Positions 1-63,503 of a stretch of 64,000 bases of DNA are shown piece after piece (position 1 is the first letter of the stretch; every line of letters begins with the position of its first letter). Origin of the DNA: Tetmemena sp. SeJ-2015 (taxonomy: Eukaryota; Ciliophora; Spirotrichea; Sporadotrichida; Oxytrichidae); assembly GCA_027382625.1 (NCBI GenBank), contig JAJKFJ010021740.1, positions 1-64,000 of the forward strand, read 5' to 3'. The translations under genes and the position numbers were made by a program. The notes beneath the pieces were generated by a model. It was not told the DNA's origin, made no database searches, and saw only the letters and a list, made by a program, of their open reading frames with translations.

Positions 1-940
1 GAGGGTACCTGCTGCTCGAATGAGCACCTGCCATCGCCTTGTGATGATTTAAAAATTTCTGTTTTTGTGATCAGCAGCAAGTCATCATGAAAAATAAGAA
101 GCCTAAATTATTCTTTATAGAGAGGCGAATTTTTGCCAAAATCTTTTTGGGGGAAACAACTTTACCTCTTCTTTGGTTTGTGAGGGTACCTGCTGCTCGA
201 ATGAGCACCTGCCATCCCTTTTTGGATGACTTTGAAAATTTCGCTTTTTGTAAACCAGAAAGTTCATTGAATCAAAAGCAAGCCTAAATTTTTCCTTTAT
301 AGAGAGGCGAATTTTGCCAAAATTTTTTTGGAGAGAGCAACTTTACCTTTTTTTTGGTTTGTGAGGGTCCCTGCTGCTCAATGAGCCCTGCCCAGTCCCC
401 TTGTGATGTTTTAAAAATTTCTTTTTTTGTGATCAGCAGCAATCATCATGAATCATAAGCAAGCCTAATTTTCCCTTTTATAGAGAGGCGAATTTTTTGC
501 CAAAATCTTTTTGGAAAAAACTTTAACCTTTTCTTTCGGTTTGTGGGGGCCCCCGCTGCTCGAAGAGCCCTGCCAGCCCCGCCTTGTGATGACTTTAAAA
601 TTTTCTGTTTTTTTGATCAGCAGAAGTCATCATGAATCAAAAGAAAGCCAAAATTTTCCCCTTTATGGAGGCAAATTTTTTTGCCAAAATCTTTTTGGAG
701 AGAGAAATTTTAAAACCCTCTTTTTCGGTTTGTGAGGGTACCTGCTCTCAAATGAGACCTGCCAGTCGCCTTGTGATGACTTTGAAAATTTCTGCTTTTT
801 GTTTTCAGCAGCTATTCATCGTAAATACAAAAATCAAGCCTTAATTTTCCATTTTAGAGAAGCGCATATTTGCCAAAATCTTTTTGATAGAGCAACTTTA
901 ACCTCTTCTTTCGGTTTTTGAGGTTACCTGCTGCTTGTTT
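1..940. repeat. ~181 bp tandem satellite, about five diverged copies
   Basis: Five and a bit copies of one unit follow head to tail. The landmark 'gagggtacctgctgctcgaa' or a variant starts at 1, 182, ~363, ~545, ~733 and ~920, so the period is about 181-188 bp. Each unit also carries 'tgatcagcagc', 'agagaggcgaattt' and 'gccaaaatctttttgg' at constant offsets. Copies differ by substitutions and small indels, and the last one decays into unrelated sequence near 940. No long reading frame is conserved across copies, so short open stretches here are not genes. Such satellites are typical of micronucleus-limited DNA and are expected to be removed from the macronucleus; that fate is inference. The array probably continues left of the window. 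Confidence 0.93.
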
Positions 941-1299
941 GTATTTAGCCCTCACCTATCTCTGAAATCACCTATAGCAACTCGAAACAGTTAAGCATGA
1001 TTAAGTTATTCAGTCACTTTATGCTAGACTCGATCAGAAAGGTAGCACAAATTGTGGCTATCTCCTGCAATATGAGCGTACTTCTAGACCATGAAGTTTT
1101 GCAAAGCTATAGCCACCTAGGACCCCGTTGTCTTTGATTTGTCAGTGATAGTCCAAGACAGCGTTGCTGTAAGTTAAGTTGAAAGTTGACTTGAAACTAG
1201 AGTAAGAGGAGAGTCAAGACTAAGATGACAAAGTGAAACAGCCTTACATATGTATCAAGCAGCTTAAGATTTTACAGGCAGAGTATTTTGGTGAGCAGC

Positions 1300-1800
1300 A
1301 TGAAGATACATGAGCTCTCAATGCATAAGAATGAATGCAAGTTGCAGTAGTCCTCTCTGAGCTTCATTTCTGCTTTCAGCCAAGACAAGATAGTGAGCAG
1401 CTAGATCATAGAAGGAGCATTCAATGCGATTCTCTTTGAGAACTTCATCTACAAGACTCTGAAGAGCATTCGCTGTGACGAGAGTCTCTTGCACAAGAAG
1501 ATTGTTCTACTTATGGACTAAGCAGTCATTCATCGCTTCTCAGAGGTATCTGAAACAGCCAAGCGATATTCAAAGTTGTAGTGCTCTTTAGCTTATAGTA
1601 CTCACCATGGCTCAATCCTATCGAACAGCTCTTCTCATTTGTGAAGCTGCAGCTACGCTCACGCAAGATAGCTAGAAAGTAAGATTGACTCCGTCCTAAC
1701 TCTACAGAGAGAATCTAGTCTCAGCTGTGGCCGAGGTGCTCTAGAGAATGATTGCAAACGATGTCAGCAAGCTGTGGGTTCTAAGTATCAAGAGATGGCT
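1300..1800 (+). mobile_element. Decayed Tc1/mariner-type (TBE-like) transposase
   Basis: From 1360 one frame reads SFISAFSQDKIVSS, then IIEGAFNAILFENF and KKIVLLMDQAVIH, the layout of the second half of a Tc1/mariner DDE domain with its 'MD.A.IH' catalytic aspartate. Near 1570 the frame shifts and the other frame gives YSPWLNPIEQLFSFVK, the hallmark 'SP.LNPIE' block carrying the third acidic residue. The catalytic aspartate codon is followed by TAA, read as Gln, so the element was adapted to the host code. A frameshift, and a missing N-terminal DNA-binding half, show it is a remnant. Telomere-bearing elements (TBE) of Oxytricha encode transposases of this superfamily and help DNA elimination; assignment to TBE rather than another Tc1/mariner group is inference. 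No terminal inverted repeats were recognised. Confidence 0.8.
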
Positions 1801-2510
1801 ATAGACAATCAGGTTCGGCTTCGTTTGAACAATGGTCAGCAATGAAACCAGAGCAGCAGAGTTTGAAATTAAAGTGTCACTAACTTGCATTTGTCAATGT
1901 CCGCATTCTAGTAGCAATCTATTAATATATTTTACGCGCCGGGTCTATATATTAGCTGGATCAGTATAATTCTACCAGCCGAGTTATGATTTTATCAGCC
2001 AAGGTCAAACCAGGAATAGAGTAAGGAGATTCTATCGATCGGAGTCCGATTATTCTGGTGCGAGTCTAATATTATTCTACATATAGGAGATGATTTATTG
2101 TTTCTGTGTATTTATTTATTTCTGCAATTTTGTCTTCAACCTTGATTTTTACAATAGTAAATTCACCATCTGATCTGCAGCTTTTTATATGGTTTATCAC
2201 AAATTAATATGAGTTTCTTCTTTAATTATCACCTCTCAACAGTGAAAAATAGCGCGCATATTTTCATTTTTTAAATCTCTTCTCTCTGATAACTTGTGTC
2301 ATTTATAACTCTTTAGTTACTGTTCTCACACAAAAGTTGCAAGGATGAAAAGATCTAATAATATTATGCTGAATCAAATGGTATAATTATTATTTAATTT
2401 GGAGATACTTCAACTGTCACTGATTTAATCCATTTTAATTTAATATATAAATTTAATTCTATTTTTGTATTAAATTATCAGATAATTAATAATTTATAAA
2501 ATTGATGTGT
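1800..2510. other. AT-rich non-coding germline DNA
   Basis: Between the transposase remnant and the GST segments the DNA is AT-rich and no frame shows protein-like composition. A slightly GC-richer patch (1930-2060) has repeated 'agcc.agt' and 'tctatcgatcggagtc' phrases but no recognised feature. Confidence 0.5.
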
Positions 2511-3395
2511 TTTAAGTGTTGGCTATATTGGCAATGATGTAAATTAATACTAAGTCTTGAGGAAGTAGACCAGTTCAAGGGAGATTTAAAGAAAGATTCC
2601 TACTTGGCAATGAACCCCTCTGGCCAGATTCCTATGATATCCGAGGGCATGTTCAAGATTTTAGGAGGTTCCAACACTCTCATGGCCTACCTATGCAATA
2701 GCCAGCAGCGCATTAAGGACAAGCTGTATCACCAGGAGAACAGACAGGAAATCGAAAAGCATCTTGCCTGGTTCCAATCTAGAATGAAGCCATAGTATGT
2801 AAAGCAAGTTGAGAGCAAGCGATTCTTCTGCGGTGATGACATCACTATTGCAGACATCTAATACTACTGCGAGATAGTTAAGATATGAATTTGGTTAATC
2901 TCAGCAGATGGTACACTGAGAGATGCACCAATATTTTTGCAAATTTTAAGATATTCTTTTGATTTATTAAAAGTGTATCTCTAATGAATAAAGAATTGCA
3001 GTATTGGCAATAGCTGGAGTGCCCCACAGTCTTGATATTTTAGTATGAATGAAATTTTTATTAGAATGAAGCCCACATCCACTAGACTTATCAAGATGAT
3101 CGTGAACCCCAAAGCTTTCGGCGATAAGGCTCCATCCGCTCAAGAGCTCCAAAGAGAAACAGAAGAGTTCTTCAAGAAGCTCCTTCCTTCCCTCGACAAG
3201 CAAGTTGAATTGATTATTGCGAGATCAGTACCATCTTGAACCTTACTAAGAAGGACCTCGATGAATCTACCTTCCCTAATCTCAGAAATCCAATGGGGTT
3301 AATTTACAAGTATTGAGAGATGCAGCGTACTACCTGAGATCATTTAGTCCGACAAGAAACTTAAGGAGATCATCGGCAAGTACAATCTCCAGTGA
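2505..3395 (+). CDS. Glutathione S-transferase, scrambled (order 1-3-5-2-4-6)
   Basis: Cytosolic glutathione S-transferase of theta/omega-like length. Six macronuclear-destined segments lie as 1 (..-2535), 3 (2553-2791), 5 (2802-2875), then 2 (3002-3035), 4 (3062-3208), 6 (3218-3395). Shared direct repeats join them: TATTGGCAAT (2526/3002), AGTCTTGA (2553/3028), TAGAATGAAGCC (2780/3062), AAGCAAGTTGA (2802/3198), TGCGAGAT (2868/3218). Every join keeps frame. The product reads LAIAGVPHSLEEVDQFKGD, then the thioredoxin-fold 'MNPSGQIPMI' (cis-Pro loop), a helical C-domain with FFCGDDITIADIQYYCEI (the conserved N-capping box) and ends EIIGKYNLQ plus TGA. Within segment 6 a 10 bp insert with ATT ends (3302/3312) must also go. 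The first ~20 residues with the start codon were not found. No segment reads through alone. Confidence 0.9.
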
Positions 3396-15105: not shown

Positions 15106-16159
15106 ATGAGTGCGATACTTTTATAATATTTTGATATTAAATATATGCATGAGTGCGAAAGGTGGTGCATTTGATTATCTGATTAAGCTAATCCTAATTG
15201 GTGACTCAGGCGTGGGAAAAACCTGCTTCCTCCTTCGCTTTGCAGACGATAACTTCACATCCTCACACATTTCAACCATCGGTAAGGTCCAAATCAAACT
15301 ACTTCGGCATTTTTACAACAGAATTTAAATTATAAGAAAAGAAGGACGAGGAAAAAATTCATAAATCCAATTTTTATAACTCGCCTACATTATTTTCAAA
15401 TTCAATTGCTAACTTTTTTGTGCAGGTATATAATAAATATGCTTGCAATTTATTTTTGATTGTATCGATTTCAAGATAAAGACGATAAACATCGATGGAA
15501 AGAACGTGAAGCTGTAGATTTGGGACACAGCTGGACAGGAGCGTTTCCGCACAATTACCTAGACTTACTACAAGGGAGCGATGGGAATAATTTTGGCTTA
15601 CGACTGCACGAGTGAAGACTCCTTCAATAATGTGAGAAACTGGGTCCGATAAATCGAGGTGCACGCCAGCTCAAACGTTGAGAAAATCCTTATTGGCAAC
15701 AAAGCTGATCTCACTGATAAAAAAGTCATTGATTACGAACAAGGGGCAGCTCTTGCAAAGGAGTTTGGCATGCAGTTCTTTGAGACTAGTGCAAGGTCAG
15801 GCCACAACGTCAATGAAACTTTCTTCTACATTTCTAAGCAGATTAACAATAATTGATGATACTATTTTATTAAGGACAAACAGCAAAAGGCTCAGAACTT
15901 ACAAGCTGCCTCTGGCTAAAGCGCCAATGGAAAGCTACCTAATGGAAATATTCTCAAATAAATACCTAGTGTTTAATTCCTTAAAACATGCAAATGATTG
16001 CAAATTATAATGGTCTATGATTCAAAAATATTTTTATTTTTCATCAATACCAAAATAGGTGGAGGGAATGAGAATACTTTGATAAATTGTTTTTACCACA
16101 AGAGGATCGACTCTACAGGAAGGAGGAAAAAAGAAAAAGAAAGGCGAATGCTGCAAGTG
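15106..16159 (+). CDS. Rab family small GTPase (Rab1/Rab8-like)
   Basis: Membrane-traffic GTPase. Motifs in order: P-loop GDSGVGKT, switch I ending STIG[I]DFKIKTI, switch [20 protein letters not shown], and ETSAR, then a linker and [12 protein letters not shown] with the prenylated cysteine pair. The path has one intron (15282-15425, GTAAGG...GCAG) and four IESs: ATGAGTGCGA (15106/15149, 43 bp), GTAT (15426/15462, 36 bp), ATTAA (15842/15869, 27 bp, holding two in-frame TGAs) and ATAAAT (15958/16082, 124 bp). Removing them gives the standard Rab length and restores the Ile-Asp after the switch I Gly. The first IES repeats the start codon itself, so ATG exists twice. Switch sequences are closest to Rab1/Rab8; the exact subclass is inference. 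Confidence 0.96.
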
Positions 16160-17082: not shown

Positions 17083-18736
17083 ATGAAAGCAGACGAAACT
17101 CAATAAAACAATCAAGCACAGGAATAAAAGAAACAACTTAACTAAAATATGTCGCAATAAGAATCTTCATTTAAACTAAAATGCAAGTAAAATTATAACA
17201 TTAGCTTTGTTTATAAGTTTAACATGCACTTAAATCTTCCTAAGTATAAAAGAAAAGAGAACTCATAATACGTGGAGAGAAATGTTCATCAAGCAAGCTT
17301 TCAAATGGCACATGCAAACTCAATTATTCCTAAATTAAATTTAAATTACTAGTTAGGCATTAATTTTAAATGAAGGATATAAATGCAACAGAACAACCTC
17401 CATTAGAGGACAAGAATAGTGACACAAAAAAGTTTCAAAAAGCTTTCAAATCAAGGAAAAATTTAAACGAACCTGCTTAATCAGCATACGCTCCATAAAG
17501 TTAATAGTCAAAGAACTCTTAATACAGAAGAAAATTCTACTTAAAAGCAACAAAAGAAAGACCCACGTAACTATTTATTGAAATAACCTTAAATAGGAAA
17601 AAAGAGGAGTCAAATATAAATTTCAAAAAGTGGTTGCTAACAATGGTTTCAACAGCTAATGTTTTACTCGCTACTTTGATTATAATAATGGGAATCAAAG
17701 CATCATAGTTTAATTTCAACGATTTGCTAGTTGTAGATAAAGCTTTAGTTGCTTTAGGTATTTGGGTACTTTTGATATCTATGCTTAATCTCTACGGTAA
17801 CTTTTTAAGAATCTTTAACTTTTATTAGGTCTTGGTAAAGAGAGTGACGAGATCATGCTTTTCGTTTTGTACAACTGTGTGATATCTTTCATTCTGCTGT
17901 CAATATTTGCAATAGGTGCTATTTCATTTTCAGATGCGTTGATTGATTGGATAGACAAACATTGGGAAGATATAAGGCCAACTGTGAAAACTTACTCAAT
18001 GATTGATTTCAAGCAACATATCTCAAGTGAACTCGTTTCTTTAGGTGCCTTCGCCTTTACTATAGATTTAGCTCTCTTCATTATGATTACAACTATTCTT
18101 CTTATTTAGGGAGTAGAGAAAGTCATGATAGTTTTGTTCCCACTTACAAATCTAATCTTCATTGTGTTTTCAATTGCAATCTTGGCAGTTGCAATCTATT
18201 TCAACTATCACACGTTCTACACTAGTGCAATGCCTATGGGTGCCAATTATGCTCTCTTCCTGATTGCTTTGGTTGTGTTAGTGATTGGTATCTTGGGTTA
18301 TCAATCAGGAAGCAAAGGTAGAATGAAGTACTTGCAATTTTACATCATTGTTTTGGCTATAAGCGCTTTGCTTTGCTTCTTTACAGGTGTTTTTATGATT
18401 CTTAGAACTTCAACAATAAAGGAAACTGTATCCAAAGAGTGGCCAGAAATTTCTCAAAGACTAAAAGAATCAGGCTATGATATTGGAGAGTCAACGTTTT
18501 CTAACTTCTTAGAAGTTAATGTCAAATTTGGTGGATTGTTTGTAATAGTGTTTTGCCTATTCTTGGTAGTAGGTTTCATTCCTGCTTACTACCTAAGGTT
18601 CTTAATTAAGAAAAAGGGAGACGTCTAAACAGTAGGATTAGGTGGTACAGGAGTGTTTGGAACACCTTACAGACTAAATAGCGACAACACTTCACCTAAA
18701 TTGAGAAAGAACTCATAGGACTACTCAGAGGCTTGA
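17083..18736 (+). CDS. Four-helix membrane protein, tetraspanin-like
   Basis: The N-terminal ~150 residues are Gln/Lys-rich and cytosolic-looking. Four strongly hydrophobic helices follow: WLLTMVSTANVLLATLIIIM; CVISFILLSIFAIGAISF after a short intron at ~17794-17827 (GTAACT...TTAG); FPLTNLIFIVFSIAILAVAI; and two close segments around ALFLIALVVLVIGILGY and FYIIVLAISALLCFF; with a last helix FGGLFVIVFCLFLVVGF. That is a tetraspanin-like layout, but the CCG motif of true tetraspanins was not found, so the family is not proved. Basic loop KKKGDV and a Ser/Thr-rich tail end at TGA 18734. The frame of the Q-rich N-terminus is uncertain; more than one frame is open between 17370 and 17620, so an unresolved IES is likely there. 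Confidence 0.65.
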
Positions 18737-28800: not shown

Positions 28801-30577
28801 TTCTTTTCCTCAAGAAGTTACTCGATTATCTTTGATTCCTGTTCTCTTTACTTCTATACATCTCTCTTTGCCTTTTCAAGGCTCTTATAAATATATTTCT
28901 AACACTACTATTTAAGGTTAAACAATTATAATCTTTCTCTCATAGTCTGCAATGAGTATCTTCACAGCTTCTTCGTTATTATTGCTTATAATATTTGCTT
29001 GCACCTTGTTTTCTATCTTCATTGCATTTTACCCAAACCTCAAAGAGCTTAGAGTTTGCTCCACTTGAGAAAATACAGGAGTCACACAGATTATCACACA
29101 AGTTTAAAAAATAAAGTTCTTGAGTTGCCACCTAGTGAAGATCTCAAAATCTTTGTGAGAGGAGAGTTTCTGTAGGGAATATGCTGCTAAGATATTGTCT
29201 GAGGATTCTTTGAATTCATGTTAGTCAGTTGCTGCTACAAGCTTAGAGACTTTTGTTCAGCTCGCATGGATATCACTTGAGTTAAGAAGAACAAGCTTTT
29301 ATTGATATTCTTTCCCTCATTTATCCTGCTCTTAACTGTAGAAAATAAAAGAATAAAAATTATTGTAGAATCAATTTGAGGTACTTGATCTCCAAAGTTA
29401 GTCACATACAACTCATCTGGATCTTTACTGTCATAGTGAGAAGATACCTTTTCGGAGCCTGCCAAATCTACAAAGTTCAACACCGACTGCGTAACGTATT
29501 TCCTGATATCTCTGCTGCTATTGTTATTTTAATTCAAGAACTTTAGGCCAGATGTTTCCCCTGTAGCATCTGCTGTTGAAGTTTGCTGTTACTGCTACTG
29601 TTGCTGCTATTACTCTTGCTAAAGGAAATTATTGGTGATGCTTTAAACTTAAAGTCTGAAAAGAGTATGGGATCTGCTACTACTATGATTAAGCTTAGTT
29701 TCAGCATAATGTCTGTTAAGCTCACCTCTTCTGAGGTAGTAGAGGATTTCATCAATTGAAGTAACTGGCTCCTCTATCACTCCTCTTATGTAGAAGTCCT
29801 TGTTCTTGTCCTCACTAAGAAAAGCAAATCAAAATAATTAATGCAGATTTTACTAAGGTGTAAGGGTTCACTGAGGAGTGAATCTTCAGTCCTGAGTAAG
29901 TCGAATATCTGCTCATTATAAATCTCGATGTAAGAACATCTGAGGAAGTAAGTCTTTTCAGAGTCAAGTTTAATCTCCTTGAAAATATCTTGTAGGGCAT
30001 AGATGAGCACTCCAGGTTATTCACTAGACTTCTCTGCAGCTATTTTCTCTTGAGACCTGCCACTTAGGTAGCTCATTTCCATGTTAATGTCATCACACAT
30101 GTCTACCGTGGATATACCTAGGCTCTTTTAAATCTTCAGTTCACTTGCTCTTATATCAGAGTTGGGTGAGCGATCCCTAGTTTGAGATTTGTTATCCTGT
30201 GCGTTGTAGAATTTCTTAGAGAATAGCTATGATGCAGAGCGTGAATTAGAAAGTGATTACTGGCTGCTTTAATTACTTTATTACTGTTATTGTTGGCTGA
30301 AAAATGGGATAATTTCCTTTCGCTCTCTCCCAAGCATTGTGTAAGTAAAACATAAATAAAAAGGTTCTAAAAGTTTTTCCGCTTCCAGTCTGACCATACA
30401 TAAATACTGTTCCGTTTATTCCATTAAGAGATGATAGTGCAATTCTCTTTACCATCTGTTGGTATATTTGCTGGTTCTAGTCCTCCTCCTTGAAACATAA
30501 ATCTATAGCTATCAAAGATGCACAAGATATTTTAAACTCAAGATTAAAGAAATCAAAAATGCAAATAAAATTTTTCT
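25871..30577 (-). CDS. Kinesin motor protein with coiled-coil and Q/S-rich tail
   Basis: Microtubule motor. Motor motifs right to left: GQTGSGKT (P-loop, ~30380), SYIEIYNEQIFDLL (~29920), a switch I block HSSSRSH (~29690), VDLAGSE (switch II, ~29460), GKNINKSLFFL (~29300), then LSSLRFGQNAMKIENKV and a neck-like NNEEAVKILIADYERK. Short frame breaks between these blocks are introns or IESs. A long helical tail follows, then a Ser/Gln/Asn-rich end (NSSRQCSFGDENTSSKI, KSQKQF) to TGA complement at 25871. The codons before the P-loop flow without an intergenic gap from the coiled-coil sequence to the right, so both may be one gene of ~9.8 kb with an internal motor. The usual 'I.V..R.RP' first strand was not clearly seen. 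Family not decided. Confidence 0.85.
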
Positions 30578-42233: not shown

Positions 42234-45212
42234 ATGGACAAGGATCAGATTTTGTACAAACTTAAGAAGGCTATCGAAGATAGCAAACTCTAAGACTTTG
42301 AGTCGGAGTGCAAATCCAACATAGATTAAATTGATCAATACATCAAAGTAATATACACTTTTCCATTTTATGACCTTGTAATTAGAAATTATGCAAGAAT
42401 AACTACTAAGAATTCCTGAGTTCTTTACAAAGTGTTGCTCATTTCAAGGAAGGCATCAAGAGCATAAAAAAAGACATGATAGAGATTAACAACTTCATCC
42501 AATAAATTGACAAGGAATTTTTTACCAAGGCATAAAAATCCATAATAGCAAAGGAGAACTATCTAAAAGCACAAGGAGCAAAGAATCAACTTTTGCATAC
42601 AAGGGTAAGTTTTAGTAATTTACTTTCCTTCTTTTGGGCAAATATATTGAGAGTAATTTAGAGAGTAGTTGAAAGGGCAAAGAAGATTTAGAATTTAATC
42701 CAACGAAATATTCTTAGTGTTGCCTTTCATGAGCTGGATTCTCTGAGAGAAGATGCAGAAGATGAATCTCATTCATCATAATTAAGAGAATGGATTGGAA
42801 GGAGAGTGGAATCTTTTGAGGAAAAACTCATGAAAATTTTACAAAAGACTAAATCACAAATTGTAGTCGATCTAGAGAATAATGAATCTGAAGCAGGAAA
42901 TCAAGTCTTAGATTTTTGTATTTTTTAGATGAAGTGAGAAGATATGTCTAAGTTTTGGGGAATTAGTTCTTGCTCGAAAGCGATGACGATGATAGGAATA
43001 TAAACTCTAACTAATTAACTGAAGTTCAAGGAAAGCCCAAAGGCTCAAACTTTGGAAATAATGCGGCAGCCTAGTATATGAATCTTAAAAGAAGCTAGGT
43101 AGGATTATCTTTATACAAATCAGGAATGGGAGCTATGAATTTAAGAGCGAGTAAATAAGGAAATAACATGCTAATGAGCAGCATTAACAACATGATGCGA
43201 GCTTCTAGAATGGGATAGATCGGAGGCTCCCCTGGCTAAGTAAATATTATGCCTAAATTTCAAGACAGAACAAGTTTAGCGCAGCTTGCATTCTCAAGAG
43301 TAGGAAATATGCCAAAATATGACACTCCTAAAAATAAAAACTCAAACCTTGATTTCATGAGCAGTTAAGCACTTAACCAAGGATCTATGACTGTTAGAGA
43401 GCCTACTCTAATCATAATTCAAATATTTTATTTTAAGATAGAATTTTTCTAATGAGAGGGCAGACCACAGCATTTACTCTCGAGGCCGTTCAAAAGTAGG
43501 CACTTGTAGCTTAAGATATTGTCATTGACATAGACTTTTCCAAGATTGAAAATGCGAGAAAATTATTCCTCAAAGTAGATTAAGAAGATCAGTTAATATC
43601 TTATTTGTAAAATGAACGAGTGCAAAGGTTACTTTAACTTTCTAAGCTCCCAAGAAGTAAGGATAATTTTGATTAACATAATTTACTTAGAGGTAAACAT
43701 CGATGAAAATCTAACAAAAATTATTGGCTTCTTTGTAATACAAATACACTTGACTTTTAATCTACCCTAGATTTTCTTTCCAAGCACTCTATAATCTTAT
43801 TGGGAGCAATGCCTTTTAAACTAACCCCATTTATACTTTGCATTTTAATAAGTTGGAAATGTTTACAAATCTAAAAAAGCTTAGAGCAAATAGTCTTTGA
43901 CTATGAATATCAACCAATAATAGAAACAAAGAAAGAAGTAGTACATTTCATTTTAGCGATAAGAGATTTAGGACTAATTTCAGATCTAAGCTTCTTGAAT
44001 ACTATGATAAAGTTGCATGATGTATTCATGGAGAAATTATTGAATGCTCTAGAGAAAGAAGTCAAGGATATTTTAGAGTATGAAAATTACGAAGCAGTTC
44101 TAGTTAATAATTCAGAAGAGCTATTCAAATATGTAGATAAGTATGAGATAGACTTATCAAGATACTTTGGCTAAAACTAACATATGAATCTTAGATTTCC
44201 AGTTGCTCTTCCTTATTCCATTTCGGTAGTCAAATTTAACGACCTCATCTAAAAGTTTATAGAAAAGAACTTTATCTATTGGCAGTTTCTACTAAATGAC
44301 AAGGCCGACTTTACCCTTGCTTACTCTTCAAGTGATAGAATTATAATGAGGACTATCGAGTTAATTTCTGAGCACTTTTTCCACTTGAATAAGTTTACGA
44401 TTCTCTAAAGAGCCTAGTTTTGTTCAAATCTGGACTATATACAAAAGAGTTTCTCCTTTTTTAAAAGGATCGTATTTCAGCAAGCGAATCAAGGTGCATA
44501 TAACTTCAACTAAGATATCTATGGATTTTCATTTACTTCAGAAAGTTAAATGATGAATTTCAAATCCAAGTGTGAGGACTCTATATTCACTGAGTTGAGA
44601 TTGAAAATAAGCGAATTCTTGAGTATTTTAGAGGGTCTATAATGGAGGCCAAAGAAGCCAGAAAGTGCACATCATGAGTTCGTTGAAGACCTGGTGATGT
44701 TCCTCAGATCAACAATAGTGATTCTTGATCAACAAAATAAGGAACTTGCAAGGTAGTGCTACTTAATCACCTTCTAGCATCTATCTTCAAGAGTAATAGA
44801 AGTCTTGGCCACTTCAAAGACTATCAGTCGTGTCTCACAATCAGGTCTGATCAATTTATATCAGGACTACCTTTATCTCATGAAGTTCTCATAGGAGCCT
44901 ATGGTCAACAATTAGCAGACTTTTGAAATTGGAATGAGTGAACTCCAGTAAATTTTGAATCTATTTCTTGCAAGTTCTGACCAAGGAGTTAAAGAGATTT
45001 TAGATGATGACCTTTATAGAAAGAAGTACGCCAACATTAATCTCAAGCGGCTGGTACTCATTCTTGAGAAATTCAGAGATGATAAAGTCTCATCCGGGCA
45101 AACTTCTAATCAAGAAGTTGAGGAAATAATACAAAGACTACCCAAGATTAAGAAGAGTGATGCTTAAAATGTGGCAAAGAAACTCAGGGACTCTTTGAAT
45201 TTTAGTAAATGA
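42234..45212 (+). CDS. sec15: Exocyst complex subunit SEC15 (EXOC6)
   Basis: Tethers secretory vesicles to the plasma membrane; a Rab effector. N-terminal coiled coil MDKDQILYKLKKAIEDSK with introns at 42348-42385 and 42605-42661, then VVERAKKIQNLIQRNILSVA and HELDSLREDAED. IESs with TTAGAT (42908/42925, 17 bp) and TCTAAT ends (43407/43448, 41 bp) restore NQVLDEVRRYVQVLGNQF and EPTLMRGQTTAFTL. IDENLTKIIGFFV matches the family 'GFF' core. The C-terminal half is continuous (LRFPVALPYSISVVKFNDLI, EDLVMFLRSTIVIL, NLKRLVLILEKFRD) and ends QNVAKKLRDSLNFSK. A Gly/Ser/Asn/Met-rich insert (43020-43400) has no usual counterpart. Junctions between 43680 and 43890 are not fully settled. Confidence 0.9.
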
Positions 45213-48559: not shown

Positions 48560-49025
48560 ATAAAATGAATAAAGTGATACAGAAGAGCCTCCAACTTTTG
48601 AAAAGAAATTACCCCGCAAGTATGATTCCAAAGTGGAGAGAGCCAGAGATCCCAAGTTCTCATCTTCGTACAAGCAGAAAAAAAGAATCACATAGAACTT
48701 AGAAAGTGGGTTCTAATACTACATGAAGAACACTGACAGAGAAAATCACTTTAATAACAAAATAGTTGAAAAGTTTGGAAAGGAAATGCTCCAAAATATT
48801 TCCCAAATCTCCCTCGAAAAAGTATTGAACCCTGTTAATGAAGACGCAAAGTAATTAAATAACAAGTACATCTCATTCAATCTTATATGCTTTATTCGAC
48901 ACTCCAACTGAATACTACTAAGTTAAATAGGCACTCTCAAATCATAAACCAGCTAAGGTAAACTTAGGGCAAAAGACTAGACACTCTTCATTCCGACAGC
49001 TCAACGATAAATTTAATCTACTTCC
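48560..49025 (+). CDS. Small charged protein, unrecognised
   Basis: Frame SDTEEPPTFEKKLPRKYDSK, VERARDPKFSSSYKQKKR, GFQYYMKNTDRENHFNNKIV, EKFGKEMLQNISQISLEKVL. After an AT-rich break at ~48860-48895 it resumes DTPTEYYQVKQALSNHKPAK and RHSSFRQLNDKFNLLPD. The nearest ATG (48565) is out of frame with this, so a small IES near the start is likely. No clear TGA follows before the Pet127-like gene. About 140 residues, polar, no membrane segment. Function unknown. Confidence 0.5.
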
Positions 49026-49270
49026 TGACTATTATTTATTAAAAATAAACAAATATAAAAATAGCTCAAGAAATCCTTAATCTTATTTTCTTGCATTCAA
49101 ATTAAGGCATTCTTTTATATTTCTTGCTAGATTATTATAATAATTAGATTAATATGATTATACAGCGTAAATATGTAGATAAAATTATACCATCCTCCAA
49201 AAAATTTTTATAAAATAGGATAAAATTTTGATTTAGAAATAGTTTTTAAGAATGTAAAATAGATTTTATA
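49026..49270. other. AT-rich spacer before Pet127-like gene
   Basis: A/T-rich with no protein-like composition, although no TGA occurs in one frame. Treated as an intergenic stretch. Confidence 0.35.
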
Positions 49271-49289
49271 AATTTAACTTGATTTGCAA

Positions 49290-50948
49290 ATATCTATTAA
49301 TTTTGAATCTAAATAAGGAAAGGATCAGTTCTCTTCTTGACGCTAGTAAAAATAATGTGGAAGCAGTAGAGAATGATTGGCAAGATAAAAGCATTATTCC
49401 TGAGCTAGCTAATGGTTTGGAAGTGGTACTAAAGCAGCCAGGAATCTTCCCAGTAGAGTCTATCAATAAATTGAATGAAGGGAAGTTAGGGAACTTCTAC
49501 ACTCACCTTCCCTAGTACTCGCAAATCAACGAAGACTGTATATCTCCTTACTATCCTCCTGGATCAGATACCAACCTGATTAGACTCTGCAACCTTCACA
49601 AAACTAAATACACTATGTCCACATCAACCATCTCTTCAATGCTTTCTCATCTGTATTACTGCATGTCTAACTTCAAGTCGCCCCATTTCAACCATCTCTC
49701 TGAGGCCTATGATAGAGAGCCTTTGAAATTTATGATCTCTCAACGTAAACCTAACACTGTCTTCCTTAAGAAATCTACCAAGGTTCCTGGCGTCTATTCT
49801 GTTGATGGAGACTCTGGCTTCATTGAGTAAGCTAACGTTGTACTTCTTAAGATGGGAAAATATATGGAGAAGATGCTTACTACTGACTCTCAATTTTTCT
49901 CAGACCACTATGTTCTCGATCCTAGAACTAACAAGCCTTTAAAATAATTTGAGGGAGAGATTCAACATGAGCCTGACTATTTCAAGTACCTAAAATCTGG
50001 CAGCTTATTATTGAGATCTCAAATTGATTGCAGAGGTATTGACGGAGAAGGAAATGATGTGGTCTTTGAATTGAAGACGAGAGCCACTAGTGTTCTTAGA
50101 TACGATATTGGAAATTACATTGACTACTTAGACTACGAAATAAACAAATATAAGGGCAAGGCATAAAGCTATGAAAGAGAGTTTTATGATCTTATTAGAG
50201 GAGGTTTTCTGAAGTACATCATGCAGTGTAAAATTGGGCGTATGTCTGGAGCAGTTATTGCCTATCATAATACTCAGAAAGTGTTTGGATTCGAGTATAT
50301 CACTCTGAAAGATATGGAGAAAAGAGTTTTCGGGTGCCCTGAATTCTCTGATGTAATTTTTAAGCATTCTTTGGCTTTAGTTGAAAAGATCTTCGACTTC
50401 ATCATTGAGGACTAGGATAACTTGAAAGATAGCGAATACAATCCTTCAGCTCAACATTATAATATATATTTGACATATAACAAAACAAGATCTTCAAACT
50501 CGGATTCTATGCAAATGAACATGAGCGCACGCTAAATGTGCTAGTTGAAGTTTTTGATAATGACTCATTCTATTAGGAGAGATTCCGCAGTGTATTGCCA
50601 GAATATATGAAGGACCCCATCGATTACTATCTTTCCCATAAAATCAATCCTTAGGTCTACAAATATCAGGTGGGTATATATCCTATCCTAAATGGAGTAT
50701 TCATCGATCACTCACCTATTCTATTCGAAAAAGGTGATACTTTAGATGTCAAATACACAATTTCTAGACAAGGCAAGATTAAGTTCAATCAATCTAGTAA
50801 AAATATTATAATTTCTTATCATAAGAATTAATGAAATGAGTACATGAGATTTTTGCACGAGGCCTATAAATGCGATACAGTAAACGTAGATAATGATTAT
50901 GCAGGAACTTGGAGCTTTTATTATTTTATTTAAAGCTTTGTAGTATGA
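49290..50948 (+). CDS. Pet127-like protein (mitochondrial RNA processing family)
   Basis: Fungal Pet127 acts in mitochondrial RNA 5' processing and carries a PD-(D/E)xK-like core. Here: NGLEVVLKQPGIFPVESI, LPQYSQINEDCI, TMSTSTISSMLSHLYYCM, GKYMEKMLTTDSQFFSDHYV, LLRSQIDCRGIDGEGNDVVF-ELKTRA (candidate D and E-x-K), YDLIRGGFLKYIMQCKIGRM and AVIAYHNTQKVFGFEYITL, all in family order. After a break at ~50430-50485 it continues NEHERTLNVLVEVFDND and VGIYPILNGVF. A TGA at ~50831 vanishes when the 9 bp between AAT repeats (50826/50835) is removed, giving HKNEYMRFLHEAY; stop at 50946. No start codon or mitochondrial presequence was fixed, so the 5' limit is approximate. Confidence 0.85.
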
Positions 50949-56260: not shown

Positions 56261-56516
56261 GGATACTTATTTTTTAAATATAAATGCACCTAATCTCGCA
56301 ATATAACCACGAATCATTCATAATTTGTTGATTAAAGATTTCAAATATACTCTAATTTTTTAACTAAGCATTCTCGATCTATTATGCTAACTCATTCAAC
56401 CTCCTAGAGCCGCAGCTAAAGGAAGACTGAATTCTCTTTTGGTAATCCTTCATTCATTTTTATGATCATTAGAAAAACCTCTTTTTGACTCTCATTCTTA
56501 CTGGTAACGATTTAAA
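56261..56516. other. Intergenic spacer
   Basis: About 255 bp between the transporter stop and the sideroflexin start, same strand; AT-rich, no feature recognised. Presumably the sideroflexin promoter. Confidence 0.35.
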
Positions 56517-57593
56517 ATGGCCTGTTATTTATTCAATCCGCTGTAAGAAGCCACATCCTATGATTATGATTTATAGGAACTCCTTGGTACCAAACTAAAA
56601 GATTCATGATTACAAGTAATACCTAGAGGACATGAGAGGTCGAGAGCAACTTGAAAAGGAAAAGGGAAAGACTTTAATGCTCACTGATTATCAAAAACAT
56701 GTCATAAGAAGAGCGCAGATTGTTACAGGTGCTTCTGTTCATCCTGATACAGGCCAGATAATCAGCTGGCCTTGGAGGATGAGTTCGTTCCTATATCTTG
56801 GTCTTCCTTTGACAATTGGACTCACGATGGCTCCTCCCACTTTTGCAAGCACATTTTTCTGGATATGGGCATCTTAGACATATTTTTCAGGTGTAAACAT
56901 TGCAAACAGGAATGCTTCAAGTGAAGAAGGTTATAGAAACACTTTCATGGGTTTCACAGCAGGAGCGGCCGCAGGAGTAGTCTTAGCCCTAGTTCTTAGA
57001 GGAGCTATCCACCAACTCACTCCTCCCTCGATCTTAAACAATGCTGGAAACAAAGTTCTATTTAATACAACAACTAGCTTTATTGCTCTCTCAGGAGCTT
57101 CTTATATCAATACAGTTGTGAGTAGATACAACGAGCTAAAGAATGGCGTTCTAATTTATGATGAAAAAGGCAAAGATGCAGGAGTCTCTAAACTAGCTGC
57201 GCAAAAGGCTATATTCCAGACAGCAATGACGAGAATAGCAATAGTCTTCTAAATGGTCTTTGTTCCTGGCACAATTAAATTAAATTAATTGTTGGACTGC
57301 TGTAAAAGTACAAGTATGTGCCGGAAACTCCTCTTCTTAAATCTTTGGTCCAAATTCTTGTTGTTGGATCAGTTTTAAAAAATAAAAATAAAAAATAAAA
57401 ATAAAAATAAAAAATAAAAATAAAAAGTTTTGTCTCTAGCTATGCCTGTTAGTCTTGCTTTATATAACAGAGAGTAAAATTATTTTAAGAGAGGGATAGA
57501 TTCCGATTTAAAAAAATAGAACATCATTTGCAAGGTTACAGAATGGAAAATGGAAGTACCCCTCAATATTTGTACTTCAATAGAGGATTGTGA
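56517..57593 (+). CDS. Sideroflexin (mitochondrial inner-membrane amino-acid carrier)
   Basis: Starts MACYLFNPLQEATSYDYDL. A 7 bp IES with GATT ends (56601/56608) restores KLKDYKQYLEDMRG. Then RAQIVTGASVHPDTGQII (the family HPDTG motif), SWPWRMSSFLYLGLPLTIG, FFWIWASQTYFSGVNIANRN, FMGFTAGAAAGVVLALVL, KLAAQKAIFQTAMTRIAI and VFVPGT. Near 57274 one of two tandem ATTAA units must go to reach IVGLLQKYKYVPETP. A 55 bp (AAAAT)n IES with AGTTTT ends (57371/57426) separates VQILVVGSVL from SLAMPVSLALY. The end PQYLYFNRGL matches the conserved sideroflexin C-terminus; a last IES before QGYRMENGST was not delimited. TGA 57591. Confidence 0.95.
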
Positions 57594-57688
57594 AATAATT
57601 GATTCCTTAATTTAATTCTTAATCATTTAATCATTGAATCTTGCTCTGACTAGATGTTAAACCTTAATATTTGCAATTATGTTTACAT

Positions 57689-58993
57689 TCATGTATGCTT
57701 AATGACCAAAAGTAATAGACAAACGATAATAGATACAAGCAAACAGCTGAGCACTCCCTTTGCTCTCATAGATTTCTCGATTTTTACCGTCTTTTCAAGA
57801 TGAACTATTCCTTGCTTTACATCTTTGTGAGCTTACTCGACGTTGAAATCTATTCTATCTAAAATGGTGCCTTGCTCAACTACCAATACTGATAAATCTT
57901 TGAAAAGAACAGCCAAATCATTTATCGTGTTTACTAAGCCTTTGATTTCTTTGTTTCTAACTCTTTAGGTATGATCTATTTCTTCGTCCTCTTCAAGAAC
58001 TTGCATTTGCGAGTCGTCATTTAAAAATTGATCCATCTTTCCTCGAGCTGACTTGAGTTCTCTAACTCCCACATCGTCATGCAATTCTTAAACTTTGAGA
58101 TAGTGCTTCTTTTCTCTAGTTCTTAGTTTGAAAGTGATGTCTTTTAGCCTTGTAGCCAAAGTAATCTGAATATTTTAGCGAACTATTATAACTTTACAAC
58201 TCAATCTTTATCTTACTTTAATCATCGTATTTATCATCTGACTTGAATTTCATTAGCTCTTTGAGTTTACTGTCGCAAGCTCTCACTAACTAAATTATGA
58301 ACATTAAAATGCAATAGTGATTTACATCAGTGACATCTTAAGCAATATTGTTAATCTATTTTTGGAGTGCAGTGGTTGACTCATCTTCATCATCGTCTAG
58401 GAAGTTTACTTTCAGCCGTTTCTATTGTAGCTTCTTGAGTTCGTTCACTATTGAAGATCTTAATGAATTTTATCTTACTTTTAGCATCTATTTCTTCTAT
58501 GTGTCTTTCAATTTCCTCTTAAATGTCAACCCATATAGGAGGCAGAAATCTCTTTCCATACTCTATTGAAGAGTCTTCACTTGAAGCCTTTGTTGACATT
58601 GGCAGTAGTTTCACATTATCATTCACTTTCAAATAAAATAAAACTTTCTCTAGCTCCTAGGGAGAAGAAAGCCCACTATACGTTCCATTATTCTAGCTTT
58701 AAAGAATTGTTGAACTGTTGAAATCGCTTGAGGAAGAAGACAGAAATGTTCCTTTTAGAGGCTTAAATCTATACAGACAATTCAATACATTTTTATGAAT
58801 AGGAAAATATTTTCATTCTAAAAATGGAGTTATTTTTGTTGACTACAGATTCTAAATTCCAATTCACTAACCTATCTCTATTGTTTTCAAGTTCTATTTC
58901 CTTATGCTTGAACTTTAGGAAGAGTGGAGTTAGATTTTTAACAGTTCCTTTAGACCTTGATAGTGGGGTCTAATTTTGTTTAAGAGATGTCAT
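57689..58993 (-). CDS. stx16: Syntaxin-16/Tlg2-like Qa-SNARE
   Basis: SNARE for endosome-to-Golgi fusion. Starts MTSLKQNQTPLSRSKGTVKN. ATAG repeats (~58865/58793) bound an IES; removal gives ENNRDRFKPLKGTFLSSSSS. Then RFLPPIWVDIQEEIERHIEE, NFLDDDEDESTTALQKQINN, an intron (GTAAAT...TTTAG) and LVRACDSKLKELMKFKSDD. TTG ends bound another IES, giving IELATRLKDITFKLRTRE. The SNARE motif RNKEIKGLVNTINDLAVLFK, DLSVLVVEQGTILDRIDFNV has the zero-layer Gln (EQGT) exactly as in syntaxin-16. A C-terminal anchor (VLSCLLVSIIVCLLLLVI) ends KHT at TGA complement 57689. The short N-terminal peptide of Tlg2/Stx16 type could bind a Sec1/Munc18 protein (inference). Confidence 0.93.
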
Positions 58994-60937: not shown

Positions 60938-61215
60938 AGAAAAATTTAATAATTAATTGAGTTATTCATTAAATTTAACAGCTAATCATTAAATAAATTC
61001 TTAACTATAATACTCTCCGAACTTACTCGAAATTATGTTTTCATATTTATATATAAACAAAATCAATTTAAAATCAATTTAAGTTATATCTTTAGGTTAA
61101 ATGATTTTCATACTAAAAATTTTAGAATTGACTTATATTTTTATATATCGATTTTAAATTAATATCTGAAAATAATGATAGGAAATCACTCCCTCGACTA
61201 AAATCAGAAACACTG
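60938..61215. other. AT-rich intergenic region
   Basis: Between ELP3 and the Cdc20/Cdh1 gene; long A/T runs and no protein-like frame until about 61190. Presumably promoter of the latter. Confidence 0.35.
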
Positions 61216-61218
61216 TGT

Positions 61219-63503
61219 TGCCATAAACGAAAGATATTTCGGGCAAAGAGTTCAATCGAATTTTTCTTCGCTTGACTACAATCCATTCATCAATTTTCAA
61301 AAACCACCTATCTATCAGTCTCTCACAAGTTCTCATGGTCCTATGGATTCAACTGCCAATAGTTCTAGCTATAACAGCAAGCTTATTTCTGGATAATGCT
61401 CATCAGCATCATCTATTTAAGCTTCAAAAGTATAATAAGTTTTTTTTCTCCAAAAATATTTTCTTCAAGGTCTAATTCTATCACTTACAACTTTTTATAA
61501 TACTCTTAACTTTTCCAAGGCCTGTGCCCAAAACGACATTTTGCCAAAGCAAACACGCCAAAGCAGTCAGAAAGAAAACTCCAGCTTGCAAAGTAATATG
61601 AATCAACTCTCTAAGGGAGCTAGCAGAAGTTCTTGCTTGAGCTCTAAAAGATCTATAATTTCTACTAGTTCTCTGTCTAATGGTCGTTAATCTGTTCTAA
61701 GTTAAGACTCTTGCGCGTAAAATTCTAGTAGGAGCAGCAGTAACACTTTTAAAGGGGATCGATTCATTCCTTACAGAGGAACTCAAGACAACTTTATGGA
61801 GGAGTATATTATCAACAACGATCACCCATTTACCTAAGCCAAAAAATAGCTCAAGTAAAGCCGTTAGCCCAATTCTCTGCAAACTTAACAACCCAACAAT
61901 AATAACTAGCTTTCAAACGGATAGTTGCCAGAGGCAAACTAGAGACCACCTAATTCCAATAACGAGGATAACTCTCATATTTCTCAGTCAAATATCAGCA
62001 ATAGCAATGAGCCCTCTTCTGTCGCATATCTTCAAGCCACACCAAATGAAAGCAACAGTAGCTAAGGGTCACCTTCGCTAGATCATATTCAATATTCTCG
62101 AGGTTCAGGCAATAAGATCAAGCAAACCTTTTAAGAATTTATCGCGGAGAGTTTATTTACAAGTACAAGAGGTTCTCCTAACACGCTTACTTTAAAAGAA
62201 GCTGAAGAAGAGGAACATCAGCTTAGATCTAAGGCTTTCATAAGTAAACCTTCGAAAAAGTAAAGAATACTGACTTTCAAAGAGAAAAAAGGATGCTAGA
62301 CTCTTTCTTTGCAAAATAACCTCTCTCTAATAAGTTCAATAGCCTAAGAAAAAAGTTAGATCTAGTAAAAGAGCATACGTTATATTCCTTAAGTTCCAGA
62401 AAAAATTTTAGATGCTCCAGATCTTCTCGATGACTACTATCTAAATCTTCTTGATTGGAGCTAAGAGAATATACTTGCCGTCTGCCTTGCACAAACAGTG
62501 TATCTATGGAACTCTAAATCAGGTGAAATCAAGTAATTGTTTGACTCAGAAAATGAGTTAGATTATGTTACCTCTGTTTCATGGATGAACGGATCAAGCT
62601 AAGTATTAGCAATTGGAACTTAGAGTAAGCAGATCCATTTGTGGGATACTTAGAAATTTTCTCATATTTAAACTCTTGCAGATTAACATACTGAGAGAGT
62701 AAGTTCCTTAAGCTGGAATCCTACTCACACTTCTATTTTAAGCTCAGGATCTCTTGACTCATTCATACATAATAACGATGTGAGAATCAGACAAAGAGAT
62801 AGCATTGTTTGCACCTTTAAAGCCCATAGGCAAGAGGTCTGTGGCCTTAAATGGAGTCCAGATGGCTCTCAGCTCGCAAGTGGAGGCAATGATAACTTAC
62901 TTTGCATTTGGGACATCAATAGCAGAATAACAGGATTGAATTAACAGAGGAATATCAACTAAACTTCTCAAGTCTATGGACCTAAGTTTTGCCTTGCTGA
63001 CCATAATGCTGCAGTCAAAGCTCTTTCATGGTGTCCTTGGTAAAAGAATCTCCTTGCTTCGGGAGGAGGTTCAAGAGACTAATGCATCAAGATTTAATTA
63101 TTTAAAAAAGTTTTGGAACACTGAAACTGGAATGCTAGTTAGCTCAACCTAAACTGACTCTTAAGTATGTGCTCTTTAGTGGAATCCTTTCGAAAAGGAA
63201 ATTCTCTCTTCCCACGGGTTTATAAATAATCAACTATCAATATGGAAATACCCTTCAATGAAAAAAGTTGCAGACCTAAGAGGACACACTAGCAGAGTTC
63301 TTCATTTGGCTTTGAGTCCTGATGGTACGACTGTTGCAAGTGCAGCGGCTGACGAAACCTTGAGGTTTTGGAAAGTATTTCAGCCTCCTCTTGCAAAGTC
63401 TAATACCTAGAAAGACTCAAAAGGGCAAAGTTCTAAGAATATTCCACTCTCAGAAAGTTCAAGGCTTTTCTAAAATCCTACATCGTTTGCCTCTCTTCGC
63501 TGA
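61219..63503 (+). CDS. Cdc20/Cdh1-family APC/C activator (WD40)
   Basis: Recruits substrates to the anaphase-promoting complex. A long Ser/Asn/Gln-rich N-terminus includes SQKENSS (a KEN box) and [10 protein letters not shown], a C-box (DR[FY]IP.R) that binds the APC/C. Then [22 protein letters not shown], the block that opens the Cdc20/Cdh1 propeller, and WD repeats [131 protein letters not shown]. An IES with AAG ends (63089/63108, 19 bp) restores [10 protein letters not shown]. Ends SFASLR: a Leu-Arg tail where the family has Ile-Arg. Another AT-rich insert at ~61436-61515 is a probable IES. The start is uncertain; [10 protein letters not shown] (61344) is one option. Confidence 0.93.

Follow-up and report, generated by a model that had tools for sequence, protein, structure and literature searches.

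The odd-even pattern of scrambled genes is established in spirotrich germlines, according to PMC9797194, and the scrambled segments published run to tens of thousands in the accounts of PMC9797194 and PMC10901763. In Oxytricha trifallax, for which PMC10901763 gives figures, 5,285 of 18,111 chromosomes are scrambled. The same two papers describe canonical pointers of 2-20 bp, those at scrambled junctions being longer than nonscrambled ones. The locus analyzed here resembles the odd-even genes of Oxytricha trifallax and Tetmemena sp., as PMC9797194 presents them, in its two clusters of segments, in pointers that fall within 2-20 bp and in a reading frame that is restored by joining. It differs from the genes presented there in that the array is compact and the first coding segment probably lies far off, beyond a satellite. 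The odd-even loci of Euplotes woodruffi in the same source also show the pattern arising from two clusters; the median length of their scrambled "pointers" is 48 bp, compared with 8-12 bp here. Finally, the legend of Fig. 6D in PMC10901763 refers to spirotrich genes with a segment on another germline contig, and the present gene likewise has one coding segment off its contig. In one open-access library we found no published scrambled glutathione S-transferase (GST) gene. The locus is presented as a clean new example of a pattern that is itself already known.

The window, the whole stretch of DNA that was analyzed, makes up positions 1-64,000 of contig C2815, whose full length is 84,262 bp. The assembly to which this contig belongs, and in which all further searches of the species' own DNA were made, comprises 146 Mb in 5,213 contigs. 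As judged from the DNA and its predicted protein, bases 2516-3395 of the plus strand appear to be the micronuclear (germline) form of one predicted GST gene of a hypotrich-like spirotrich, scrambled into eight segments. We put the probability of this reading at about 0.95. The features are listed in Table 1.

Table 1. Segments (MDSs, local numbering), spacers (IESs) and pointers of the predicted GST gene; positions refer to the window, and pointer positions give the first base of each copy.
Feature	Position	Strand	Size	Description
Right part of putative long first spacer	1-2515			satellite 1-935, DDE_3 fragment, ~350-bp repeat; cis linkage presumed
Segment 1	2516-2535	+		VLAILA(I); left edge placed from the P0001 alignment; right end is pointer 1 (2526-2535)
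IES, segments 1/3	2536-2552		17 bp	
Segment 3	2553-2791	+		pointer 2 (2553-2560) to pointer 3 (2780-2791)
IES, segments 3/5	2792-2801		10 bp	
Segment 5	2802-2875	+		pointer 4 (2802-2812) to pointer 5 (2868-2875)
IES, segments 5/7	2876-2895		20 bp	
Segment 7	2896-2927	+	32 bp	pointer 6 (2896-2904) to pointer 7 (2917-2927); (N)LSRWYTERC(S)
Spacer between odd and even clusters	2928-3001		74 bp	G+C 16/74
Segment 2	3002-3035	+		pointer 1 (3002-3011) to pointer 2 (3028-3035)
IES, segments 2/4	3036-3061		26 bp	
Segment 4	3062-3208	+		pointer 3 (3062-3073) to pointer 4 (3198-3208)
IES, segments 4/6	3209-3217		9 bp	
Segment 6	3218-3285	+		pointer 5 (3218-3225) to pointer 6 (3277-3285)
IES, segments 6/8	3286-3313		28 bp	if retained, frame reaches TGA just past the IES
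Segment 8	3314-3395	+		pointer 7 (3314-3324) to stop TGA (3393-3395)
Pointer 1	2526 / 3002		10 bp	TATTGGCAAT, exact copies
Pointer 2	2553 / 3028		8 bp	AGTCTTGA, exact copies
Pointer 3	2780 / 3062		12 bp	TAGAATGAAGCC, exact copies
Pointer 4	2802 / 3198		11 bp	AAGCAAGTTGA, exact copies
Pointer 5	2868 / 3218		8 bp	TGCGAGAT, exact copies
Pointer 6	2896 / 3277		9 bp	TAATCTCAG, exact copies
Pointer 7	2917 / 3314		11 bp	TGAGAGATGCA, exact copies

Along the DNA the eight local pieces, all on the plus strand, follow each other in the order 1-3-5-7 and then 2-4-6-8. Judged against the relatives, which are colinear, this order is non-linear, with the odd and the even pieces in separate clusters. At each of the seven local junctions, segment n finishes with the exact pointer of 8-12 bp with which segment n+1 begins. 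Two of the pointers have further copies in the 64-kb window, AGTCTTGA at three places and TGCGAGAT at two; the other five have no additional copy there. The seven spacers are AT-rich, with a G+C content of 20.7% (38 of 184 bp) versus 45.3% (315 of 696 bp) in the eight segments. A previous sequence-only reading of this DNA had reported that two blocks (2526-2875 and 3002-3225) have five exact repeats in common, in matching order, and all five are where it had placed them. Its gaps also hold, with 17 and 10 bp between odd segments, 26 and 9 bp between even ones and 126 bp from 2875 to 3002. It had counted six segments; there are eight, since segment 7 sits in the gap that it had given as about 125 bp and its segment 6 is made up of segments 6 and 8, divided by the 28-bp spacer. 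The earlier observation is in part confirmed and its interpretation in part supported: the kind of gene was right, while the count, the start and the completeness were wrong.

In the unrearranged DNA, stops occur in all three forward frames when genetic code 6 is used (TAA and TAG for Gln, TGA as the stop). Joining the eight pieces with a single copy of each pointer retained restores one open frame, which runs through ...FPNLSRWYTERCSVLPEIIQSDKKLKEIIGKYNLQ and ...KYNLQ to the terminal TGA. This code is consistent with the joined sequence, in which an in-frame TAA at codon 153 coincides with the Gln of DIQYY in relatives and an in-frame TAG at codon 193 is read as Gln. The locus thus has TGA as stop and both TAA and TAG as Gln; by comparison, Euplotes uses another genetic code.

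We scored all 40,320 possible orders of the eight pieces. The order 1-2-3-4-5-6-7-8 came out on top, with 193 of 208 residues identical to the closest relative, the environmental protein P0001. The runner-up reached 179 identities and contains a stop; in the frame tested, 734 of the 40,320 orders were free of stops. A chain of seven colinear matches of at least 8 bp was not found in any of 5,000 dinucleotide shuffles, in which the longest chain had five. Elsewhere in the AT-rich window, a chain of the same size occurs in 3 of 1,182 overlapping 891-bp blocks, two of the three overlapping each other, and for this reason the repeats by themselves are not proof. It is the frame and the homology together, rather than the repeats, that decide the predicted order of the segments.

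The joined protein matches the Pfam domains GST_C (6.3e-11, 42.8 bits versus a cut-off of 20.7) and GST_N_2 (3.6e-6, 27.9 bits versus a cut-off of 25), while GST_N_3, with 21.6 bits, is slightly below its cut-off of 22. With GST_N and GST_C domains above the curated cut-offs, the protein is predicted to be a GST. Among about 5.8 billion proteins searched, 26 relatives were found at E ≤ 0.001, of which 16 were aligned. P0001 has 243 residues and is encoded on a contig of 1,141 bp, a size that fits a one-gene nanochromosome. The eight-piece join aligns with it without gaps (93% identity), and all eight segments add to the identity; the weakest is segment 7, with five of seven whole codons. These Pfam matches (GST_C and GST_N_2) and the colinear 93% relative strongly support the earlier proposal of an odd-even scrambled GST gene in a germline of the stichotrich type. 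Because a DNA search of the own assembly with 2505-3395 found the locus itself as its sole match, the junctions rest on the relatives.

The assembly contains germline GST paralogues on contigs C1977, C2685, C1491, C2964 and others. Two of them lie in tandem at C1977:74100-76250, with short gaps between their parts, and match P0001 at only 29-49%. Since this pair is colinear with P0001, scrambling is not general in the GST family, and the pair provides a natural unscrambled control.

Two further explanations of the local array were weighed. The presence of these paralogues, together with an N-terminal piece on a different contig (see below), would be compatible with a decayed, non-functional germline duplicate whose working copy lies elsewhere in the germline. 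Such a pseudogene is very improbable, given that all eight pieces are open and 93% identical to P0001, that a search of the 146-Mb assembly gave no closer copy of the pieces and that the C1977 copies are so distant from P0001. Still less credible, to the point of being negligible, is a gene of only six joined segments, with an intron removed by splicing, or a truncated C-terminus, in place of the rest. The first five repeats agree with it; the frame of the six-piece join, however, closes at a TGA after ...FPNLRNPMGLIYKY (NPMGLIYKY), and the six-segment model was rejected on this ground. Furthermore, the two extra pointers, 6 and 7, yield FPNLSRWYTERCSVLPEI, which is colinear with the corresponding stretch in the relatives. 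For the preferred eight-segment gene, the seven local junctions would be joined via their pointers of 8-12 bp, each of which would be retained once, and the spacers of 9-74 bp would be removed. We infer the actual somatic joining of the gene, and its guidance by RNA. The locus is a convenient test object because it is small, with seven pointers in less than 900 bp and spacers down to 9 bp.

The relatives carry 35 additional residues ahead of VLAIL. In the 64-kb window the best match to this N-terminus had an E value of only 3.3. The search of the assembly gave one close match, on the minus strand of contig C2768 (11503-11625); the other two matches are weaker and come from the distant C1977 paralogues. 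The 35 N-terminal codons occupy bases 11625-11521 of the minus strand of C2768 and start with MGCSGSK. When this piece is placed ahead of the eight-piece join, the product has exactly 243 residues, 226 of them identical to P0001. The gene had previously been taken to start at 2505 and to be complete, as six segments in under 900 bp. The ATG at 2505 was rejected as a start, as it is in a different frame and reaches a TGA in the joined sequence, and the eight local segments lack the N-terminal coding piece on C2768.

The N-terminus is kept in 11 of the 16 aligned homologues, and all 11 start with MGC. This start resembles an N-myristoylation signal. From their sequences, P0001 and its relatives are possibly membrane-attached GSTs. 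The predicted family is like the phi/theta-type cytosolic GSTs (PDB 5ey6, 6ezy, 2c3q) in having GST_N and GST_C, with similarity across most of the length, and differs from them in the MGC start.

The two contigs share a rare satellite. Bases 1-9185 of C2768 hold about 49 nearly identical (99%) copies of a 187-bp repeat, and window positions 1-935 hold about five diverged copies of 181-187 bp, which are ~88% identical to those on C2768. Their orientation on C2768 and C2815 is the one expected for contigs that flank a single array. In the assembly search, in which repeat counts are lower bounds, three contigs proved to carry the satellite, C2768, C2815 and C1841, the last with one partial copy. 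The fact that C2768 and C2815 end in the same satellite with matching orientation points to one germline locus, and as this satellite is rare, the two contigs are probably separated by a break in the assembly of a single spacer. An assembly break is also allowed as a cause of off-contig segments in the Fig. 6D legend of PMC10901763. In Oxytricha, a 170-bp satellite repeat is eliminated from the macronucleus, as stated in PMC3491425. We consider it likely that the N-terminal segment on C2768 is in cis with the scrambled array and on the same strand. The locus would then consist of the N-terminal segment, a long spacer with the satellite array and the scrambled array, in this order. The first spacer would measure about 11.5 kb plus 2.5 kb plus the unassembled part, with a minimum of ~13 kb if the contig ends overlap in the array, and the first coding segment probably sits ~13-14 kb or more upstream of segment 1. 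With a first segment in cis beyond the satellite array, the complete gene would have at least nine MDSs.

The presumed long spacer also contains, within window positions 1237-1644, a degenerate piece of a DDE_3 transposase (Pfam 9.6e-7), possibly from a decayed Tc1/mariner-like element. A dispersed high-copy repeat of ~350 bp extends from about 2153 to 2490-2506 and ends ~10-25 bp ahead of segment 1; the assembly gave 865 first-look candidates for it, of which 40 were scored.

The piece on C2768 could alternatively belong to a separate germline locus, not in cis with the array, or to another GST. This would agree with the location of piece and array on different contigs and with the junction between them. 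A join of the N-terminal piece to segment 1 without an indel shares at most 1 bp, unlike the seven local joins, and across shifts from -9 to +9 no pointer of at least 2 bp common to both sides was found at such a join. We nevertheless regard a separate locus as unlikely. The C2768 piece is the sole close match to the N-terminus, the satellite common to both contigs in matched orientation occurs elsewhere as just one partial copy, and the gapless join gives exactly the length of P0001.

Three readings of this join of the N-terminal piece to segment 1 are considered: it may need practically no pointer, a small segment may lie hidden or be missing, or an assembly error may mask a pointer. A 5-bp TTTAA is common to both sides there, and its use as a pointer would break the frame. 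A bridging segment was sought in the own assembly with three 14-base patterns, each of which gave 0 matches. The best match across the expected junction in six stretches with a total of 109,794 bases was one of 11 bp at C2768:16620-16630, in an orientation opposite to that of the gene. Because 4 of 100 resampled controls also reached at least 11 bp, it is a weak bridging candidate only and may be due to chance. It is conceivable, albeit rather doubtful, that the first segment is joined to segment 1 with a pointer of a single base at most, over at least ~13-14 kb that consist mostly of the locus-specific 187-bp satellite and transposon remnants. If this were true, one gene would combine two modes, scrambled joins over 8-12 bp and a nearly pointer-free long-range join, and the latter would have to be specified by an RNA template alone. 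The array and the adjoining satellite-spanning join would then allow pointer-guided and template-guided joining to be compared in one gene. With the wording tried, a search of one open-access library found no published work on pointer-free junctions.

The sequence-only reading had also attributed the pattern to local duplication followed by alternate decay. In the duplication-then-decay model (Gao 2015, as described in PMC9797194), the spacer between segments n-1 and n+1 resembles the segment n that it replaces, and in Euplotes woodruffi many spacers do so according to the same paper; at the GST locus no such similarity was detected. None of the six MDS/IES pairs was more similar than expected from 2,000 shuffles, since even for the most extreme pair 578 of the 2,000 reached the observed similarity, and the lengths of MDSs and IESs are uncorrelated (Spearman -0.31, p 0.54, n = 6). 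Six pairs give this test little power. There is thus no detectable trace of duplication and decay, and the model itself is neither supported nor contradicted. The missing trace is not decisive against it, because loci that were scrambled long ago show a weak or lost spacer-segment signal in the account of PMC9797194. The same low power and the same loss of signal in old duplications weigh against reading the result as support for the rival 2005 model, as described in the Discussion of PMC9797194. The lack of residual similarity, and of a length correlation between segments and the spacers replaced, would fit that model, to which we give somewhat less than even odds.

The window contains other predicted genes. 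Among ten code-6 open frames scanned, eight have a profile match, the DDE_3 fragment included. The others match Ras (15110-15856), tetraspanin (17630-18736), kinesin (29094-29780), Sec15 (43800-45212), Pet127 (48838-50610), sideroflexin (56485-57705) and CDC20/Fizzy (61175-63124). Some of these frames match their profile only in part and may be interrupted or scrambled too.
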